The notes beneath the pieces were generated by a model. That model worked only from the letters and a program-made list of their open reading frames with translations, was not told the DNA's origin and did no database searches. DNA of 64,000 bases. Origin: Armatimonadota bacterium. Lineage in GTDB: Bacteria; Armatimonadota; UBA5829; DSUL01. Made by a program: the position numbers and the translations under genes. The first letter of the stretch is position 1. Every line of letters starts with the position of its first letter. The stretch lies in assembly GCA_025998755.1 (NCBI GenBank), contig AP024674.1:1168162-1232161 (forward strand), in the 5' to 3' direction. Shown piece after piece: positions 31,277 through 41,388 of the stretch.

Positions 31277-32425
31277 TCAGTAGAAAACGAGGTCCACTTC
31301 CTTGCCGCGCTCCCGGAGCTGCGCGGCAAGCTCCTCCGCCACCACCCGGCGCAAGAAGATGGACTCCGGCAATCCCGTGTTCTGATGGGCCGGGTTGCGG
31401 GCCGTGCCCACGAGAAACGTGATGCCGTCGGCGTCCATCAGGTGATCCAGCAGACAGGTGGCCGCGTCGGTACGCCCGGCAGGAGTACCGCGTCTGAGGT
31501 ACTCCGCAGCCCGCGTCAGCGTGAGGATGCCCTCCGTCACCAGGTCCATCCCCCGGATCTTGCCGCCGGGAGGCAGGTCGGAATCCAGGAAACGGTCATC
31601 CACTTCCAGCGGTACATCCAGATGGCGTGCCAGCAGATGCGCTGTAGTCCCTCCACACACCAGCCGCGTACCTTCCCTCCCCAGGAAGTCCTGCAGCATC
31701 GCGGGCAACCTGTCCGGTGATGACGGCGGCCCGGTGAGAAGCACCGCATGCCGCGCCTTCCGGTAGCGCGCACACACCACCGTGCCATCGTCCCCGGGAG
31801 CGCCTTCCCAGTATTCCAGCGCTTGCTCCGCAAGCCGGTTTGCCTGCGCTGCGCAATCACCGCGCAGCGCGGGAGCTGTGGTCGATAGGAACTGGAAGAT
31901 GCCCTCCTCCTGCCAGCCCATCGGGAGCCTGTGTCCCACACCCGCCCACACTATGCCGTCCGTGTACTGCAGCAGAACATCACCCGGCTGCATCTGGAAA
32001 TAGGCCACCCGAATGTTGCGATCCATCACCGTGCGCTCGAACGTCTCCACGAACTCCGGCCGGATCCCACCTGCAAGCTTCAGGGTGGGCGGGCAATCAT
32101 ACTCAGCCAAGGCGACCCGCCCGGTATCGTAAATCCGGATGACAGAGAACGTGGAATATGCGATGTTCCGCCATTTGCAGACCGGCAGCGTGGCGATCAG
32201 GGTCTCGACGATATCCTGTAGCGACAGGTCACCCTGAGACAGACCGCAGGCAACCTCCACGGTGAGGGTGGCCAGGACGTTCGCCTTCACCCCGCTCCCT
32301 AGACCGTCCGACACGCTGATGATGGTGGAATCCGGCGTATGGGCCACGCGAACGGCGTCCCCGGCGATGTCCTCGCCGTGCTTCTGGAACTGTCGGGTGG
32401 CGATGTCCAGAGCGTAGCGCTTCAC
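31277..32425 (-). CDS. SpoIIE-type (PP2C) serine phosphatase of the sensory hydrogenase operon
   Basis: A 382-residue protein whose first 225 residues form a SpoIIE/PP2C phosphatase: metal-binding Asp in SVSDGLGSG, a Gly-Asp pair in QPGDVLLQYTDG and the last Asp in GDDGTVV. The remaining 155 residues (from about 228) form an extra domain with LVCGGTTAHLLARHL and a Cys in ATCLLDHLMDADG that I cannot assign. It has no membrane segment. GTGA overlap with hydS indicates strict coupling. In known [FeFe] hydrogenase clusters, such phosphatases accompany HydS; it probably dephosphorylates an anti-sigma-antagonist type partner in response to HydS, but no partner is in view. Confidence 0.85.
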   Translation of the reverse strand: MKRYALDIATRQFQKHGEDIAGDAVRVAHTPDSTIISVSDGLGSGVKANVLATLTVEVACGLSQGDLSLQDIVETLIATLPVCKWRNIAYSTFSVIRIYDTGRVALAEYDCPPTLKLAGGIRPEFVETFERTVMDRNIRVAYFQMQPGDVLLQYTDGIVWAGVGHRLPMGWQEEGIFQFLSTTAPALRGDCAAQANRLAEQALEYWEGAPGDDGTVVCARYRKARHAVLLTGPPSSPDRLPAMLQDFLGREGTRLVCGGTTAHLLARHLDVPLEVDDRFLDSDLPPGGKIRGMDLVTEGILTLTRAAEYLRRGTPAGRTDAATCLLDHLMDADGITFLVGTARNPAHQNTGLPESIFLRRVVAEELAAQLRERGKEVDLVFY

Positions 32426-34167
32426 GGGACCTTCTCCGGTGCGGCCTCCTCGGAGAGGTCTTCGCTCATCAGGCGGGTAAGCCGGCGCAGCAGCACGCGC
32501 GTCTCGCTGGTGGTCTCACCCAGGATGCTCGCAATTTCCTGAGCCATCAGCATCTGCTTGCGGATGACCTGCTCCGCGCTTGCCAGGGTCTCCTCCCGGA
32601 TGCGGTCCAGCTGGGTGAGTTCGCGGCTACCCTTCACGGCGTTCGAAAGGATGCCCACCACCCGGTCTTCGCCCTCAAGGCGGTAGACATTCAGCCTGCC
32701 GGTCACGTGATAAGCCGGGTACGACACGGGTCTGTTCGTAATGCGATCCTGCCTGCCTGTGAGCACCTGCTCGAAATCCGTGGGATCCATCAGCGACGAC
32801 AACGGACGTCCAATGAGCGCCGGTGTGCAGGCGAACAGCGAAGCAAGTGCGCGGTTGAACTCCACAATCCTGAGCTGCGAGTCCACGATGATGATGCCGT
32901 TCGGACTCTCGTCTATGATCTTGTCCGCACGGCGCTCGGCGACCTGGCGCATCCACGGGATGCACATGGAACGCTCGGCCATTCCCGAAAGGACGGCCCG
33001 GGCGTTATCACGGCAGGTCTCATAGCCGCAGGCCCCACAGTTCAGCTCGTCCTCCGGGGTGTTTTTGCCCATCCTTGCCAGGATCTCGCGAAGATCTTCC
33101 TCGGATGCGTTGGCTGAGGGAAGGGGCCTTTCCGGCACGTCGCGGCCAAGCTCCGTCTCCCGGAGCGCAGCCAGGATCTCATCTTCCGAGGGCCGGTGCA
33201 CGGCGCGCTTCTCGTGCTGCAGCAGCCGGTTTTTGCGCTGAAACAGGTCGCGCCCATCTCCGAAACAAGCGCCGTTGATGCACCCGCCACCACAGAATAG
33301 CGCCTCGAACAGCCGGACTGCGCCGCCCTCGCGGACGTTCGCCAGCATTTCCCGTACCTCCGTCCAGCCTGATACGGCGGCGAAGTCGGGCCGAAGGAGC
33401 TCTGCGGGTATCGCGGCCGCCTGTGCCAGACCGCCCTCCAGGGGGAAGAGGCGCGCGGTCCCTGCCGGAAGGTCATCGAAATCAGCGGGCTTTGCCTGCA
33501 GGGCGGTACGGCTATCTGCCAGCCATTGACGGAGCTCGTCGAAGGTCAGGACGGCGTCCACGGCCCCGGCGCACTCTGGGAGCTCCGCTTCGGCCTTCTT
33601 GGCCGGACAGGGGCCGATGAACACCACCTTCAGATCAGTGCCGTAGACCCTTTTCAGGTGACGCGCGTGCGCCACCATCGGGGATGCCAGCGGTGTTACA
33701 CGGCCGGCAGCCCAGGGTTCGTATTTTTCGATGTATTTTACAACGGCAGGGCAGGCCGACGTGATGAAGGTGCCGTCCTCCTGATGCAGCATCTCGGCCG
33801 TCTTGCGCGCCACCATCTCGGCCCCTGCGGCGGTCTCAGCCACCAGGGCGAATCCGAGCGACCTTAGCACTCCCGGGAACAGGCTTCCGCCATACTCCGG
33901 AAAGGCCGCTATCCAGGAAGGCGCGACGGATGCCGCGACGCGCGGGTGAAGTTCCACCATCCGCCGCACGCGTTCCAGGTCGCTGCGGACTTGCTTGGCG
34001 TGCTGCGGGCATTCACGCACGCAGCTTCCGCAGACGATGCACCGCTCCGGATCCACCTGCGCCTGTCCATCGCGGATGCGGATGGCCTTCACCGGACAGA
34101 CCCGCACGCAGCGGTAGCAGTCGCGGCAGCGCGCCTTATTTGTCGAGATGACCCCCTGCGCCGACAC
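32422..34167 (-). CDS. hydS: Sensory [FeFe] hydrogenase, HydS-type (group C), with PAS domain
   Basis: A 581-residue protein. Domains in order: two [4Fe-4S] ferredoxin sites (C14-C24 and C43-C53), the H-cluster domain (about 70-320), an extra [4Fe-4S] domain (C377, C380, C385, C402), a PAS domain (about 415-515), and a helical tail. H-cluster motifs are TSACP (136-140), PCPAKK around C187, and FCGGGC with C292 and C296. The usual first Cys of TSCCP, the proton relay of catalytic enzymes, is Ala138. This fits the sensory class seen in Thermotoga. It probably reports H2 or redox state to the phosphatase encoded downstream. Start GTG 34167, inside the end of the small ferredoxin gene. Confidence 0.92.
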   Translation of the reverse strand: MSAQGVISTNKARCRDCYRCVRVCPVKAIRIRDGQAQVDPERCIVCGSCVRECPQHAKQVRSDLERVRRMVELHPRVAASVAPSWIAAFPEYGGSLFPGVLRSLGFALVAETAAGAEMVARKTAEMLHQEDGTFITSACPAVVKYIEKYEPWAAGRVTPLASPMVAHARHLKRVYGTDLKVVFIGPCPAKKAEAELPECAGAVDAVLTFDELRQWLADSRTALQAKPADFDDLPAGTARLFPLEGGLAQAAAIPAELLRPDFAAVSGWTEVREMLANVREGGAVRLFEALFCGGGCINGACFGDGRDLFQRKNRLLQHEKRAVHRPSEDEILAALRETELGRDVPERPLPSANASEEDLREILARMGKNTPEDELNCGACGYETCRDNARAVLSGMAERSMCIPWMRQVAERRADKIIDESPNGIIIVDSQLRIVEFNRALASLFACTPALIGRPLSSLMDPTDFEQVLTGRQDRITNRPVSYPAYHVTGRLNVYRLEGEDRVVGILSNAVKGSRELTQLDRIREETLASAEQVIRKQMLMAQEIASILGETTSETRVLLRRLTRLMSEDLSEEAAPEKVP

Positions 34168-34417
34168 CTTTTCTCACCTTCGGGAGGATCCGCTCTCGGA
34201 AGAAGTCCTCGGCACGATCGGGTGTGACCCCGCCGAACGGCTCGCCATCCACCAGCACATTGGGAGCTCCCAGACAGGAATCCAGACAGAGGTCGGCCCT
34301 CAGCGAGACCTGCCCCTGAACCCCCGCATCATTGATGAGCGAGTGAAGCAGCTTCAGGGTCTTTGCCCCGCCGCGCAGATGACACGAGCTTCCGACACAA
34401 ACCCGAACATCCACCAT
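34136..34417 (-). CDS. Small [2Fe-2S] thioredoxin-like ferredoxin
   Basis: A 93-residue single-domain protein like the NuoE/HndA C-terminal fold. The four cluster ligands are in CVGSSCHLRG and CLDSCLGAPN. It should carry electrons between the HydABC enzyme and HydS, or act as a partner of either. It starts 5 bases after the hydA stop with a GGGAG site, and its end overlaps hydS by 32 bases, so it belongs to the same transcript. It resembles the domains fused to HydA and HydB in this same operon. Confidence 0.9.
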   Translation of the reverse strand: MVDVRVCVGSSCHLRGGAKTLKLLHSLINDAGVQGQVSLRADLCLDSCLGAPNVLVDGEPFGGVTPDRAEDFFRERILPKVRKGVGAGGHLDK

Positions 34418-34422
34418 CGGCG

Positions 34423-36438
34423 TTACTCCCTTGCCACCGCACAGCTCCGCGCGTCCGCAAGCGGGAGCAGCCGTGAGCGGAAGAACTCCTCGGCTTCCTC
34501 GGGCGTCACTCCGCCGTGGATCTCCTCGCCCACCCGGACGTTCGGGCTGGCCTTGCAGTTCTCGAAGCAGAAGGTGGCCTGGAAGTCGAACGCCTGCTCC
34601 AACCCCTCCCGGCGGGCCGCTTCCATCAGCCGCTTCAGCGTGTCATACGAGCCCCTGAGGTAGCAGTTTGTGCCGATGCATACCGAGACTGGCACGCGGG
34701 CAGCCGCCGGTTTCTCATCCAGTTCGATGACCTGGCCATCTATCCGCCGCCGCGGGCGATAGCCCGTGTGCAGCAGGCTGTGCGCTCCGTGTCCATCCGA
34801 TCCGCCAATGCGCTCCAGGCACTCCGACACGAACGGATTGTCTGCAGCGTTGTGCAGCGGCTGAACAGCATCGCAGTCGTAGAGCATCTCCGCTCTTTCA
34901 CGCCGCGTGTCGCTGTCGGCCGGCCAAGGCTGCCCGGCGCCGCCAACACATCCTCCGGGACAGGCCATCACCTCCACAAGCTCAAAGCTCTTCAGACCGG
35001 CGCGGATCTCCTCCAGAAGAGCCCGCGCGTTGCCAAGCCCGCTCACCACTCCCACGCGGACGGCGCGGCCGTCCAGCTCCAGTTCGGCCTCTTTCAGACC
35101 GTTCAGGCCGCGGACCTCCCGGAACTTTACGTGGCCTCTGCCGCCGGCCAAAAGCCGGAGCACAGCCTCCGCCACTCCACCGCTGGCGCCGAACAGCACA
35201 CCCGCGCCCGTCTTGAATCCGAATGGCAGATCCAGAGCGCCAGCAGGCAGTTCGGCGGGCTTGAGTCCGGCCTGGTCTATCATCCGGATCAGCTCCTGTG
35301 TGGTCAACACGGCATCCACATCGGGGCGTCCGTCCTGCGCAAACTCCGGCCGCGCCGCCTCGAACTTCTTGGCGCTGCAGGGCATCACGCTGACAACGTA
35401 GAGATCCTCCGGCCGGATCCCCATATCCGCCGGCAGATGCTTCCGGGCAAGCGCGCCGAACATCTGCTGGGGACTGCGGCAGGTGGAGAGTTGCCCCAGG
35501 AGGTCCGGCTGGAACTGCTCGGCGTACTTGACCCACGCCGGGCAGCAGCTGGTGAACATCGGGAGAGGCCCTCCGCTGGCACGGCGGCGGAGGAACTCTG
35601 CTCCCTCCTCCACGGTGGTCAGATCCGCCGCGAAGCTGGTATCGAACACCCGGTCGAAACCGATACGGCGCAGGGCTGTCACGGTCTTTCCAAGGGCATG
35701 CTCGCCGCCGGCGATGCCGTAGTGCTGTGCCAGCGCGGCCCGTACTGCCGGAGCGACCTGGACCACCACAGTCCTGGCCGGGTCGTGGATGGCCTTCCAG
35801 ACCTCGTCAATGGCACTGCGGACCGTGATGGCCCCAGTGGGACAGATGGCGGCGCACTGCCCACAGTAGACGCACTCCACCTCGTCAATGGACCGACCGA
35901 AGGCCGGAGCCACACGGACATTGCTGCCGCGCCCGGCGAAGTCCAGCACTCCGATGCCCTGGACCTCGCTACACATCCGGACGCAGTCTCCGCACAGGAT
36001 GCACTTGGCCGGATCGCGCACCAGCGCCACGCCCTCATCCACCAGCGTCTCCCGTTTTCCCGGCGCCTCAAAGCGCACGCGGCGCACCCCCAGCCGGTCG
36101 GCAAGCGCCTGCAGGCGGCACCGCATGTTGCGGTCGCAGGTCTGGCACTGCCCCTGGTGATTGGCCAACAGCAGCTCCAGCGCCATCTTCCGGATGCGCT
36201 GAGTCGCTTCGGTGGTGGTGCGCACAACCATCCCATCCTCTGGAGGAGTGGAGCAGGCCGTCTGCAACCCTCTACCCTTAACCTCCACGACGCACATGCG
36301 GCACGCGCCATAAACCGAAAGGTCCGAGCAGTAGCAGAATGTGGGAAGCTCCACGCCGGTGGACCGGATCAGCTCCAGCAGGTTGCGGTGCCCGTTGACC
36401 GGCACCGGCGCGCCATCAATGATGACTGTGGGCTTCAT
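34423..36438 (-). CDS. hydA: [FeFe] hydrogenase catalytic subunit, HydA of the NADH-dependent trimeric type
   Basis: A 671-residue catalytic subunit. Order of domains: plant-type [2Fe-2S] (C35, C46, C49, C62), His-ligated [4Fe-4S] (H94, C98, C101, C107), two [4Fe-4S] ferredoxin sites (about 146-200), the H-cluster domain with TSCCP (296-300), MPCSAKKFE (352-360) and MACPGGC (491-497), and a C-terminal [2Fe-2S] thioredoxin-like domain (CIGTNCYLRG, CFENCKASPN). All catalytic residues including the relay Cys298 are present. It reduces protons with electrons from NADH and ferredoxin, or the reverse. ATG 36438 has AAGGAGG 8 bases upstream; the GTG at 36456 lacks one. Confidence 0.96.
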   Translation of the reverse strand: MKPTVIIDGAPVPVNGHRNLLELIRSTGVELPTFCYCSDLSVYGACRMCVVEVKGRGLQTACSTPPEDGMVVRTTTEATQRIRKMALELLLANHQGQCQTCDRNMRCRLQALADRLGVRRVRFEAPGKRETLVDEGVALVRDPAKCILCGDCVRMCSEVQGIGVLDFAGRGSNVRVAPAFGRSIDEVECVYCGQCAAICPTGAITVRSAIDEVWKAIHDPARTVVVQVAPAVRAALAQHYGIAGGEHALGKTVTALRRIGFDRVFDTSFAADLTTVEEGAEFLRRRASGGPLPMFTSCCPAWVKYAEQFQPDLLGQLSTCRSPQQMFGALARKHLPADMGIRPEDLYVVSVMPCSAKKFEAARPEFAQDGRPDVDAVLTTQELIRMIDQAGLKPAELPAGALDLPFGFKTGAGVLFGASGGVAEAVLRLLAGGRGHVKFREVRGLNGLKEAELELDGRAVRVGVVSGLGNARALLEEIRAGLKSFELVEVMACPGGCVGGAGQPWPADSDTRRERAEMLYDCDAVQPLHNAADNPFVSECLERIGGSDGHGAHSLLHTGYRPRRRIDGQVIELDEKPAAARVPVSVCIGTNCYLRGSYDTLKRLMEAARREGLEQAFDFQATFCFENCKASPNVRVGEEIHGGVTPEEAEEFFRSRLLPLADARSCAVARE

Positions 36439-36452
36439 GTTATTTGCCTCCT

Positions 36453-38354
36453 TCACGCCACCACGGCCCCGAGGCGGCAGACGTCCAGGCAGACCCCGCA
36501 GCGGACGCAGGTCTGCGGATCAATGGTGTGCGGCTGCTTCAGCTCGCCGCTGATGGCCCCAACTGGGCACTTTTTCGCGCACAGCGTGCAGCCTTTGCAC
36601 TTCTCCGGATCTATGCTGTAGTGGCAGAACGCCTGGCACGAGCCGGCCGGGCAAACGCCATCCACCACGTGCGCAAGGTACTCATCCCGAAAGTAGCGCA
36701 GCGTGGACAGAACCGGATTGGGAGCAGTCTTCCCCAGACCGCAAAGCGACCCGTCGCGGACGGCGATAGCCACCTCCTCCAGCAAGCCGACATCGTCCAC
36801 CGTCCCCCTGCCGGATGTGATCTTCTCCAGGATCTCCAGCATCCTGCGGGTTCCCTCACGGCAAAGCACGCACTTGCCGCAGGACTCGCTCTGGGTGAAC
36901 TGCATGAAGAAGCGTGCAACCTCCACCATGCAGGTGGAATCGTCCATCACGACCAGGCCCCCGCTGCCGACCATCGCTCCCACGCTGCGGAGCGAATCGT
37001 AGTCCAGCGGAAGGTCCAGGTGTTCCTCGGTCAGGCATCCTCCCGACGGACCGCCGATCTGGACGGTCTTGAACTTACGGCCATTGCGGATGCCGCCTCC
37101 GATCTTGAAGACGACGTCTTTCAACGTGGCGCCCATCGGAACCTCGATAAGCCCGGTGTTCACAACATCCCCGGTTAGCGCGAAGACCTTGGTGCCGGGC
37201 GAGGCCGGGACGCCCACGCTGCGGAACCAGCCAGCCCCGTTCAGGATGATGCGAGGGACATTGGCCAGTGTCTCCACGTTGTTGACGACCGAGGGCATGC
37301 CGAACAGCCCCGATTGCGCCGGGAATGGCGGCTTGGGAGACGGCATCCCGCGCCGGCCCTCGATGGAACTGATGAGCGCTGTCTCCTCTCCGCAGACGAA
37401 CGCGCCGGCGCCCTCCTTGATGTGGATGCGAAAATTGAAAGCGCTCCCAAGAATGCACTCGCCGAGGAGGCGCGCTTCTTCCGCCTGGCGGATGGCTACT
37501 CGCAGGCGCTTCACGGCCAGAGGATACTCCGCTCGGCAGTAGATGTAGCCCTCGTCCGCGCCGACGGCATAGCCTGCGATCGCCATCCCCTCCAGAACGG
37601 CGTGAGGGTTGCCCTCCAGGATGCTGCGGTCCATGAAGGCGCCGGGATCGCCCTCGTCGGCGTTGCAGATGATGTATTTCTTGGAACCCTCCGAGCGGCG
37701 GGTGAGCTCCCACTTACGGCCCGTGGGGAATCCTCCCCCTCCCCTGCCCCGCAGTCCCGCATCTGTCACCTCGCGGACGACATCCTCCGGAGTCATGCCG
37801 AACAGGCAACTGGCCAATGCGCGGTATCCCTCGTGCGCGATATACTGGCGAATGTCCTCCGGCTCGATGACTCCGCAGTCCGCCAGAACCACACCGGCCT
37901 GTTCCCGGTAAAAGGGGATCTCATCTCGCGTGGCGAAGCATTGGCCGGTCGCTTCGTCGCGGAACAGCAGATGCTGGACCGGCTCCCCGTTCAACACCGT
38001 GCGCTCCACGATGGCAGCGGCGTCCTCGGGTTGGACCCGCACATAGAAGAAGTTGGCCGGAAAGACGCGGACGATGGGCCCGACCTCGCAGAACCCTGAA
38101 CAGCCTCCGAACCCGGCACGCACCGCGCCGTCCGGGTGCTCCTCCAACAGGTCCGCCACAAGGGGCAAACCACGCGCAGCGAGCTCCGCGTTCAGTGCCT
38201 CAAGCACCCGCCTGGAACCGTTCGACGTGCATCCGGTGCCACCACACACGACGAGGCGGGTGCATCCCGATTCCAAAGCCTGAAGCGCCCTCTTCCTCAG
38301 GGCGATCAGGTCGGCCGGCGAGCCGAGAGCCGCTCCGAGAACCGCAGAGGTCAT
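36453..38354 (-). CDS. hydB: NADH-binding flavin subunit HydB (NuoF-like) of the [FeFe] hydrogenase
   Basis: A 633-residue protein. The N-terminal 120 residues are a thioredoxin-like [2Fe-2S] domain (CGGTGC, GCSGFCEVGP). The NuoF core carries the FMN/NADH glycine-rich segment GLRGRGGGGFPTGRKWE and the SLBB region, then a [4Fe-4S] site in ESCGKCVLCREG. Two C-terminal [4Fe-4S] ferredoxin sites follow (CKGCTLCAKKCP, CVRCGVCLDVC). It takes electrons to or from NADH and is the likely bifurcation site with HydA and HydC. The ATG at 38354 overlaps the hydC stop as TGATG. Confidence 0.95.
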   Translation of the reverse strand: MTSAVLGAALGSPADLIALRKRALQALESGCTRLVVCGGTGCTSNGSRRVLEALNAELAARGLPLVADLLEEHPDGAVRAGFGGCSGFCEVGPIVRVFPANFFYVRVQPEDAAAIVERTVLNGEPVQHLLFRDEATGQCFATRDEIPFYREQAGVVLADCGVIEPEDIRQYIAHEGYRALASCLFGMTPEDVVREVTDAGLRGRGGGGFPTGRKWELTRRSEGSKKYIICNADEGDPGAFMDRSILEGNPHAVLEGMAIAGYAVGADEGYIYCRAEYPLAVKRLRVAIRQAEEARLLGECILGSAFNFRIHIKEGAGAFVCGEETALISSIEGRRGMPSPKPPFPAQSGLFGMPSVVNNVETLANVPRIILNGAGWFRSVGVPASPGTKVFALTGDVVNTGLIEVPMGATLKDVVFKIGGGIRNGRKFKTVQIGGPSGGCLTEEHLDLPLDYDSLRSVGAMVGSGGLVVMDDSTCMVEVARFFMQFTQSESCGKCVLCREGTRRMLEILEKITSGRGTVDDVGLLEEVAIAVRDGSLCGLGKTAPNPVLSTLRYFRDEYLAHVVDGVCPAGSCQAFCHYSIDPEKCKGCTLCAKKCPVGAISGELKQPHTIDPQTCVRCGVCLDVCRLGAVVA

Positions 38355-38896
38355 CACTGCTCCTCCTTTCCGTCACCGACGGCCGCCTCGGCGCGCTCGA
38401 TCTCATCCAGGACGGCCTTCATTTTGTCAGCGGTCATCTGCCCGTAGACACGGTCATTGATGACCACCGCAGGGGCGAGCGCGCAGGCGCCGATGCAACT
38501 GACAATCTCCAGGGTGTAGCGCATATCGGACGTGGTCTTCTGCCCCTCCTTCAGCCCCAGCCGGCTCCGCAGGCTGGAGATGAGCGCCTGGTTTTTGCGC
38601 ACGTGGCACGCGGTCCCGTCACAGACCTTGATGACGTATTTGCCCACCGGCTCCAGGGAGAACTGAGCGTAGAACGTGGCCACGCCGAACACCGTGGACG
38701 GTGGAAGGTCCAGAGCGGTGGCGATGAAGGTCAGGATCTCTTCGGGGAGATAGCGGTACTCCTCCTGCGCCTTTTGCAGGATTGGGATCAGGGCGCTTCG
38801 TGAAGCTCCATACTCTTCGACGAGCTGCTGGATCCTGTCGAATCGCCGGCCGGCGGCATCCTGCGCCGGCTCTCGTACTGCCACAGCCTGACTCAT
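38354..38896 (-). CDS. hydC: NuoE-like [2Fe-2S] subunit HydC of the [FeFe] hydrogenase
   Basis: A 180-residue thioredoxin-fold [2Fe-2S] protein of the NuoE/HndA family: helical N-terminal half, then CDGTACHVRKN and CIGACALAP with the four ligands. It is the first gene of the hydrogenase operon. A GGAGG site stands 7 bases before the ATG. Together with HydB and HydA it gives the trimeric complex known to couple NADH and ferredoxin to H2 production. Confidence 0.95.
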   Translation of the reverse strand: MSQAVAVREPAQDAAGRRFDRIQQLVEEYGASRSALIPILQKAQEEYRYLPEEILTFIATALDLPPSTVFGVATFYAQFSLEPVGKYVIKVCDGTACHVRKNQALISSLRSRLGLKEGQKTTSDMRYTLEIVSCIGACALAPAVVINDRVYGQMTADKMKAVLDEIERAEAAVGDGKEEQ

Positions 38897-38941
38897 TGAG
38901 CGACCTCCGTATCAGGACGATGCGCGCCGTCTGGCGGCGTC

Positions 38942-38985: not shown

Positions 38986-39003
38986 TTGTGCAAAACCTCA
39001 CAA
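38986..39003 (-). promoter_or_regulatory. Operator-like palindrome at the hydrogenase transcription start
   Basis: TTGTG-CAAAACCT-CACAA, an 18-base inverted repeat with perfect 5-base arms. It lies just past the -10 box, over the expected transcript start, where a bound repressor would block. The arms fit Rex (TTGTGAA....TTCACAA) or CRP/FNR-family sites. Confidence 0.5.
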
Positions 39004-39007
39004 TCTT

Positions 39008-39036
39008 ATAATAGGCAGGAGGCGGGACAATGTCAA
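39008..39036 (-). promoter_or_regulatory. Sigma-70-type promoter of the hydrogenase operon
   Basis: On the minus strand: a consensus -35 TTGACA (39036-39031), a 17-base spacer and -10 TATTAT (39013-39008, 5 of 6 bases). The transcript should start near 39001. The same stretch reads TATAAT on the plus strand at 39007-39012, so a plus-strand promoter for the DUF6807 gene may share it. Confidence 0.7.
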
Positions 39037-39042
39037 GGGGTA

Positions 39043-39060
39043 TTGTGATATTTCTCACAG
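39043..39060 (-). promoter_or_regulatory. Operator-like palindrome upstream of the hydrogenase -35 box
   Basis: TTGTGA-TATTTC-TCACAG on the plus strand, matching 11 of 12 arm bases of the Rex-type form TTGTGA-N6-TCACAA. The core TGTGA-N6-TCACA also equals the CRP consensus. Its centre is about 50 bases before the expected transcript start and 57 bases from the second palindrome. Confidence 0.55.
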
Positions 39061-39145: not shown

Positions 39146-40111
39146 ATGAGTAACCGTTTCCACCGGTGGGCCAGACTGCAAGGGTCCCTGGCCCTGGTAG
39201 GTGCAGCCGTCATCTTTATGATGTCCGGCAGCCTGTCCGAGGCTGCCCCTTCCCCCTTCCGGCTGACGCTAGATCCTGACTTCGTGACCCTTTTTGAGGG
39301 TGAGGATCCCGTCTTGCGGTATGTCCGGGGGGAGATCCTCGCGCCCGGGGCCCCGGAAGACAGGCGCAGGAGCACGTACATCCATCCTCTTTACTCCGTC
39401 GACGGCCTGCCCCTGACGGATGACTTCCCCGCCGACCATCTCCACCACCGGGGTGTGAGCTGGATGTGGTACAGGGTGGTCTGCGACGGCGTTACGACCG
39501 ACCTGTGGACTTTGAAGGGGGTCCGGCAGCGGTTTGAAAGGATGCTAACGCCTGCCCTGTATCAGAATCGGGCCGTCCTCCGATTTCGCAACGGGTGGTA
39601 TCAGGAGGCCGACGGCAAGCGCATCCTGGAGGAGCAGGTTACGCTGACGGCCTACCGGACTGACGGACGAGGACGCATCATCGATGTGGAGTTGCTCTTT
39701 TCCGCACAGGGCTCGCCAGTGACGCTAGGGGTCTCGAACACGGGATACAGCGGGTTCGGCGTGCGCATCGGCCCTTGCCAAAGCAAGACCATCCTGACCT
39801 CCAGCGGGCCCATCACGGCGGACGAGAACCGCAACCCACACCGCTGGGCGGACTTCACGGCGCGCTTCACGGATACGCTGCGGCTGGACGGCATTGCGGT
39901 CTTCGACCATCCCTCCAACCCGAACAGCCCGCCGGGATGGACGCTACGGTTCTACGGATATCTGAATCCCGCGTTCACTTCTCGAACGGGAGACTACACC
40001 ATCCAGCCGGGAGAGCCCCTGCGGTTGCGGTATCGTTTGTTGGTGCATCGCGGGCGGTCGTCAACGGAGCTATTGGAGCAGATCTATCAGGATTTCGCCC
40101 GCCGGAACTAG
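39146..40111 (+). CDS. DUF6807 (PmoA-like) secreted protein
   Basis: A 321-residue protein with a signal peptide (basic RFHRWARLQG, hydrophobic LALVGAAVIFMMSG, cleavage near SEAA). The mature part has the DUF6807 pattern: YIHPLYSVDG, the His-rich FPADHLHHRGVSWMW, and the C-terminal GEPLRLRYRLLVHRG. This family is annotated as 'PmoA family' but is unrelated to methane monooxygenase; it is common next to Gfo/Idh/MocA genes in heterotrophs and may act on sugars. The ATG at 39146 follows AGGAG. The next gene begins 44 bases later and is probably co-transcribed. Confidence 0.82.
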   Translation: MSNRFHRWARLQGSLALVGAAVIFMMSGSLSEAAPSPFRLTLDPDFVTLFEGEDPVLRYVRGEILAPGAPEDRRRSTYIHPLYSVDGLPLTDDFPADHLHHRGVSWMWYRVVCDGVTTDLWTLKGVRQRFERMLTPALYQNRAVLRFRNGWYQEADGKRILEEQVTLTAYRTDGRGRIIDVELLFSAQGSPVTLGVSNTGYSGFGVRIGPCQSKTILTSSGPITADENRNPHRWADFTARFTDTLRLDGIAVFDHPSNPNSPPGWTLRFYGYLNPAFTSRTGDYTIQPGEPLRLRYRLLVHRGRSSTELLEQIYQDFARRN

Positions 40112-40155
40112 CCGGGCGACTTCCGCACAACACGCTCGGAAAAACAGGAGGCGCA

Positions 40156-41388
40156 ATGTCAGGGCAGCAAATGACTCGCAGGGAGTTTCTCGGACGCGGC
40201 GCGGCCGGGGCGGCGGTCGCGCTGGCAGGGGCGACGTTTGTGCCGTCACGGGCCTTCGGCGCGAATGACCGGATCCGTATCGGGCTCATCGGAGCGGGCG
40301 GACGTGGATACAGCCTGGCCGGAGAGATGCACGGCTTCGACAAAGAGGTCAAAGCGGAAATTACGGCCATTTGCGACACCTGGCACGAGCGCCGCGAGCA
40401 GGTCGCCGAGACCATGAAAGAGTGGTATGGCGGAGAGGTCCGTCAGTTCGTGGACTATCGCGAGCTGCTGGAGTGGGACGGGGTGGACGCGGTGATCATC
40501 GCGCCCCCAGACTTCGCCCACGCCATCATCCTGCGCGACGCTGCGCGTGCCGGCAAGGACGCCTACGTGGAGAAACCGTTCGCGACGGAGCTTGACGAAG
40601 CGAACGAGGCCCTCGACGCGGTCCGCGCGTCGGGGAGCATCGTGCAGGTGGGGACGCAGCGGCGCTCAGAGGGACTCTGGAGGGCCGCCGCCAAAGCCAT
40701 CCAGTCCGGAATACTGGGGAAGGTCAGCCGCGTGGAGATCATGTGGAACGACTCGAATCCGCGCTGGAATAAGGGAAACTTCGAGCTGAAGGAGCAGGAT
40801 GTGGACTGGAAGGGGTTCCTGTTGAACCGGCCGTATCGTCCGTTCGACCCCCACCGCTACCGGGAGTGGCAGCTGTATCGCGATTACACCAACGGGACGT
40901 TCGCGCTGCTGGGGACGCACTTCTTTGACGTGGTGCACTGGTTACTGCAGACCGGCTACCCGGCGACGGCCGTGGCAAGCGGAGGCAAGTACGTCTGGAT
41001 GGATCATCGCGAGCACGAGGATACGGCCACGGCCCTGCTGGAGTATCCGGAAGGGTTCCAATGCCAATACACGTCCATGCTTGGCAACTCCACCGGAAGC
41101 GGCTGCCGCATCTACGGCACCAATGGCATGTTCTCGGACGCCACCTGGACCATTAGCGGCTCGGGAGGTGGCAAAGATGCCATCAAGGAAGCCATCAAAC
41201 TGACACCCGAACCGGGAGAGAGCCACGTGCGCAACTGGCTGGAGGCCGTCCGCGCTCGCACGCAGCCCGCCGCCCCCGTGGAGGCGGGTCACAAGCACGC
41301 AGTGGCCAACATCCTGGCTTACCAGGCGCTCATCCGGGGCAGGAAGATGCGCTACGTCCCGGAAACGCGCAGCATCGTGGAAGCCTGA
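40156..41388 (+). CDS. Tat-exported Gfo/Idh/MocA family oxidoreductase
   Basis: A 410-residue protein with a twin-arginine signal (TRREFLGRGAAGAAVALAG), so it is exported folded, with its cofactor. The Rossmann motif GLIGAGGRGYSL follows, and VEKPFATELDEA is the EKP signature. Later residues (GTHFFDVVHWLLQ) carry the family His pair. Periplasmic members act on sugars or glycosides by way of 3-keto intermediates. AGGAGG lies before ATG 40156. It pairs with the DUF6807 gene upstream. Confidence 0.9.
   Translation: MSGQQMTRREFLGRGAAGAAVALAGATFVPSRAFGANDRIRIGLIGAGGRGYSLAGEMHGFDKEVKAEITAICDTWHERREQVAETMKEWYGGEVRQFVDYRELLEWDGVDAVIIAPPDFAHAIILRDAARAGKDAYVEKPFATELDEANEALDAVRASGSIVQVGTQRRSEGLWRAAAKAIQSGILGKVSRVEIMWNDSNPRWNKGNFELKEQDVDWKGFLLNRPYRPFDPHRYREWQLYRDYTNGTFALLGTHFFDVVHWLLQTGYPATAVASGGKYVWMDHREHEDTATALLEYPEGFQCQYTSMLGNSTGSGCRIYGTNGMFSDATWTISGSGGGKDAIKEAIKLTPEPGESHVRNWLEAVRARTQPAAPVEAGHKHAVANILAYQALIRGRKMRYVPETRSIVEA

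Follow-up and report, generated by a model that had tools for sequence, protein, structure and literature searches.

Rex-type operators predicted to flank the promoter of an [FeFe]-hydrogenase operon in an Armatimonadota bacterium

Two 18-bp palindromes that bracket the promoter of a hydABC-type [FeFe]-hydrogenase operon in an Armatimonadota genome are, with high probability on the basis of comparative sequence analysis, operators of the housekeeping redox sensor Rex, which would repress the operon until NADH accumulates. Rex control had been proposed in an earlier note on this DNA, and the proposal is now strengthened by the genome's own Rex gene, the same motif at rex orthologues, a predicted redox regulon and clusters of rex with hydrogenase genes in relatives. 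The mechanism is a known one in a new lineage, as Rex control of hydrogenase is established in other bacteria, and a search of the literature returned no earlier report of Rex with hydrogenase in Armatimonadetes. The window analyzed here is the whole 64-kb stretch of DNA, and its relevant features are as follows (coordinates are those of the window unless prefixed C1).

31277-32425, minus strand: SpoIIE-type phosphatase, final gene of the run (Pfam PF07228)
32422-34167, minus strand: [FeFe]-hydrogenase-like protein with FeS and PAS domains (Pfam PF02906, PF04060, PF00989)
34136-34417, minus strand: small thioredoxin-like [2Fe-2S] ferredoxin (Pfam PF01257)
34423-36456, minus strand: HydA, catalytic [FeFe] hydrogenase subunit (Pfam PF02906, 2.9e-90)
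36453-38357, minus strand: HydB/NuoF-like subunit binding NADH and FMN (Pfam PF01512, PF10589)
38354-38896, minus strand: HydC/NuoE-like [2Fe-2S] subunit, first gene of the operon (PF01257, 3.8e-52; NCBIfam NuoE/HoxE)
38904-38908, minus strand: Shine-Dalgarno GGAGG, 7 bp ahead of the ATG at 38896 (from sequence)
38986-39003: predicted operator site 2, TTGTGCAAAACCTCACAA, 18 bp, best Rex-matrix score in the window
39008-39013, minus strand: -10 hexamer TATTAT (sequence and promoter pattern search)
39031-39036, minus strand: -35 hexamer TTGACA (sequence and promoter pattern search)
39043-39060: predicted operator site 1, TTGTGATATTTCTCACAG, 18 bp, second-best Rex-matrix score in the window
39146-40111, plus strand: divergent DUF6807 gene (Pfam PF14100)

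HydA, a NuoF-like HydB and a NuoE-like HydC are encoded within this single operon, the composition of an NADH-linked enzyme of the HydABC type. HydA exceeds the NCBIfam cut-off for TIGR02512 (group A), and its best NCBIfam match is NADH-dependent [FeFe] hydrogenase group A6, at 687.6 bits and thus under the cut-off of 765. The [FeFe]-hydrogenase-like PAS protein is probably sensory; at the end of the operon (31277-34167) this protein and the SpoIIE-type phosphatase look like partners in sensing, the signal perhaps being H2 or redox state. The opposite border of the hydrogenase intergenic region is formed by the divergent genes for DUF6807 and a GFO/IDH/MocA oxidoreductase (39146-41388).

The minus-strand promoter reads TTGACA-17-TATTAT (39036-39008) and is the sole match in the 64-kb window with at most one mismatch to TTGACA-17-TATAAT, against 0.02 expected from shuffling. 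The earlier note had described this promoter and two accompanying palindromes, and its letters and coordinates are exact to the base. Both palindromes are of the TTGTG-N8-CACAA type and one lies on either side of the promoter. The placement of both at the promoter stands, but site 1, said to abut the -35 hexamer directly, is separated from it by 6 bp (39037-39042), with its center at about -50 relative to the predicted start. Site 2 begins 4 bp downstream of the -10 hexamer and spans the predicted transcription start (~39001). As 18-bp inverted repeats of the TTGTG(A/C)A type within a promoter, the sites have the form of a Rex operator, for which the overall consensus reported in Caldicellulosiruptor bescii is TTGTGAANNNNTTCACAA, 18-20 bp (PMC6391272).

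The bare pattern count proves little alone, since TTGTG-N8-CACAA with at most one mismatch occurs 3 times in the window against 0.98 expected, and 9 of 100 shuffles reach 3; what makes the sites significant is where they lie, together with evidence from beyond the window. Conservation in the congeneric genome G001, whose hydC is 97% identical to that of the window, is stronger evidence than pattern counting. All 36 bases of sites 1 and 2 are identical between the two genomes, compared with 37 differences in the 212 other intergenic columns (Fisher p = 0.004 against 0/36 in the operators). Six of the 17 positions of the promoter spacer differ, and the -10 hexamer in G001 is TAATAT.

Each of the two regulator families considered in the earlier note has a confident member in the genome, a single 3.29-Mb contig: one CRP/FNR gene and one Rex gene, the latter at C1:2,231,091-2,231,720. 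The closest matches that carry a name come from Armatimonadetes MAGs. The Rex protein carries winged-helix and NADH-binding domains, matches PF06971 at 1.5e-17, passes the curated thresholds of several NCBIfam Rex models and aligns with Thermotoga maritima Rex at 166 bits; a genome search using a divergent Rex paralogue as query recovered the same gene only. In T. maritima Rex, Arg48 and Lys49 contact bases and the wing contains Gly61 (PMC8836258), and all three residues are conserved in the protein of the window genome. The minor-groove wing residue Arg60 of T. maritima is replaced by Pro, as it also is in class Rex orthologues that carry the TTGTG motif. Housekeeping Rex orthologues occur throughout the class at 59-98% identity with a nearly invariant recognition region, RKDLSYFGEFGRPGIGY, so the TTGTG motif should be common to them.

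To link TTGTG-N8-CACAA to Rex, we used an unseeded motif search covering every 5-base half-site and gaps of 2-12 in the 120 bp upstream of 16 rex orthologues from other genera of the class. The top motif was TTGTG-N8-CACAA, present at 8 of 16 genes with at most one mismatch, a count that shuffles brought to 3 at most; depending on the mismatches allowed, the motif precedes rex in 8-10 of the 16. A Rex matrix was then built from nine autoregulatory sites of other genomes, gathered at up to two mismatches to TTGTG-N8-CACAA. Scanning the window with this matrix ranked site 2 first (19.9) and site 1 second (18.3), with the third match at 14.6 and a best score of 16.4 in 60 simulated 64-kb sequences. 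The ranking is not fully independent because the nine sites were gathered with the same pattern, a partial dependence that the unseeded search answers. The autoregulation expected of the window genome's own rex was not found, the region ahead of the gene having no clear TTGTG site.

Genome-wide statements here are based on pattern searches and chosen stretches of the genome; TTGTG-N8-CACAA has 46 matches with at most one mismatch, against 22 for a reversed control. The earlier note had suggested a search for the same palindrome before other fermentation genes. In this genome the motif lies ahead of nuoA, of gapA and a GTP-PEPCK gene, and of a second [FeFe]-hydrogenase operon, and several of these sites are conserved in more than one genus. 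The nuoA motif, TTGTGCAAAACCACACGA, lies ~55 bp upstream of the gene and has counterparts in G001 and G002. The second hydrogenase operon (L130, C1:3018000-3034000) starts with a DRTGG gene, extends to hydG and also encodes an anti-sigma-like ATPase and NuoE/NuoF pairs; a Rex-type site, TCGTGACTTTTTTCACAG (plus strand), lies ahead of its first gene, with counterparts in G002, G003 and G004. Between gapA and a GDPD gene the motif falls just past a TATAAT on the gapA strand, the GTP-PEPCK motif is also present in G001, and a further motif (the 1551118 site) precedes an unclassified membrane protein gene here and in G001 and G002. These predicted targets agree with the categories described for Rex-controlled genes, which are energy conversion, redox metabolism, glycolysis, fermentation and hydrogenases (PMC6391272). 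Separately, strong Rex-type sites were seen before serA-like genes, named from sequence by eye, in three genomes of the class (G004, G017 and G024; L237, L240 and L241).

The palindromes could alternatively belong to another protein family. Assignment to a CRP/FNR-family regulator (TGTGA-N6-TCACA), which the earlier note had left open, is now much weaker and in our view highly improbable. A perfect TGTGA-N6-TCACA core is present in site 1 and the genome does hold its one confident CRP/FNR gene (a second CRP-like match, L003, is weak, at 25 bits and below cut-off), but site 2 reads TGTGC-N6-TCACA, so that only site 1 has the form of a CRP operator. CRP recognizes DNA through Arg180/Glu181/Arg185, and an E-x-x-S-R recognition helix is of the FNR/DNR type, which reads TTGAT-N4-ATCAA. 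The closest solved structure to the genome's sole confident CRP/FNR protein is DNR, the two recognition helices being PETLSR and PETFSR (DNR), and the position of CRP Arg180 is occupied by Pro (P-E-x-x-S-R). The TTGTG motif is instead found upstream of rex orthologues and before redox genes. Control of the hydrogenase operon by a different dimeric repressor with a TTGTG-type site is likewise very unlikely. A motif by itself does not identify the protein that binds it, roughly half of the 46 genome matches are expected by chance, and some matches (C1:1396, 86165 and 3247333) share an ACGTT core and are closer to each other than to the Rex sites; against this, both the Rex autoregulatory sites and the set of redox genes agree closely with Rex.

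Two further alternatives accept Rex and differ in how the sites would work. Site 2 alone might be the hydrogenase operator, with site 1 serving mainly the divergent DUF6807 gene or being a by-product, a reading we consider improbable. Site 1 does lie between the two divergent genes and is 85 bp away from the start of DUF6807, and most rex-hydrogenase operons of relatives have a clear operator at the site-2 place only. However, site 1 is unchanged in G001, operators 6-7 bp upstream of the -35 hexamer occur in some relatives' rex-hydrogenase operons (for example L112 and L102), and a promoter search of the window found none for the DUF6807 gene, which is a possible second target of site 1. The earlier note had also suggested that a DNA loop bridges the two sites, an arrangement that two sites for one dimeric protein might invite. 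Looping is very doubtful because the centers are only 57 bp apart, or ~5.4 helical turns, which places the sites out of phase on opposite faces of the helix at a distance that is very short without a bending protein, and Rex has been reported to be a homodimer (PMC8836258). The sites merely flank the polymerase site, and the two Rex operators proposed here probably act by steric exclusion.

In many Armatimonadota a rex gene lies directly upstream of homologous hydrogenase genes. Nearly all of these hydrogenase-linked Rex proteins share only 36-45% identity with housekeeping Rex, and they form separate clades. One clade (L101-L107 and L109) shares with the window homologous hydrogenase genes, a TTGACN-17 promoter and an operator at the position of site 2, but its dedicated, divergent Rex has Arg-Gln rather than Arg-Lys in the recognition helix, and its operators are TCGTTAA-N4-TTAACGA or a near variant, exactly 4 bp after the -10 hexamer in 8 of 8 cases. 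Genome searches of the window's genus and family, which include two incomplete genomes, found no dedicated paralogue, and the genus seems to use housekeeping Rex for this operon instead. As an independent observation, G009, G021 and G025 contain hydC homologues (48-59% identity) and returned no match in the housekeeping-Rex search. In the simplest reading, operator and Rex changed at a hydrogenase promoter whose layout was retained. We lean modestly toward a regulator exchange in which the operator stayed in register 4 bp after the -10 hexamer, with a dedicated Rex and TCGTTAA-N4-TTAACGA in the class and housekeeping Rex and TTGTG in the genus. The residue that follows Arg48, either Lys or Gln, appears to covary with the operator sequence; Lys49 contacts half-site bases (PMC8836258), and therefore a change between Lys and Gln could accompany a change of operator.

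By analogy with the Rex family, from which DNA binding, NADH-dependent release and repression are inferred, a switch can be outlined for this promoter. When NAD+ dominates, Rex dimers would occupy both promoter flanks, upstream of the -35 hexamer and over the transcription start, and would prevent RNA polymerase from initiating transcription of the hydABC-type operon. As NADH accumulates, it would bind Rex and change its shape so that Rex leaves the DNA, after which the hydrogenase would be made and electrons from NADH would pass to H2. Because the promoter is flanked by two Rex-type sites, the cell probably makes this hydrogen-producing enzyme when NADH accumulates.

This arrangement has counterparts in characterized Rex systems. 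Streptomyces Rex controls the nuo and cyd operons, with the nuo Rex site near the start, as predicted for nuo in the window genome, to which predicted control of [FeFe] hydrogenase is added here. In C. bescii, gel shift supports Rex binding upstream of hydrogenase genes, and Rex sites likewise precede multi-subunit hydrogenase and maturation genes (the Hyd operon and hydG) (PMC6391272); the present genome belongs to a different phylum, its two sites bracket one promoter and its rex has no clear site. T. maritima, also of a different phylum, has an NADH-responsive Rex that controls hydrogen production genes (PMC8836258, its reference 15), and its protein has the recognition residues Arg48 and Lys49 in common with the window genome's Rex and differs at wing residue 60, Arg in place of Pro.

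Together, these analyses would assign a named redox sensor, with testable target genes, to the control of hydrogen production in a phylum that is little studied and largely uncultured. The paralogue exchange is mildly novel and is the part most worth specialist attention. If true, it would provide a natural pair for studying Rex specificity and cross-talk, and a comparison of the two paralogues, each with its own operator at one promoter position, would be a clean case for how Rex specificity evolves.
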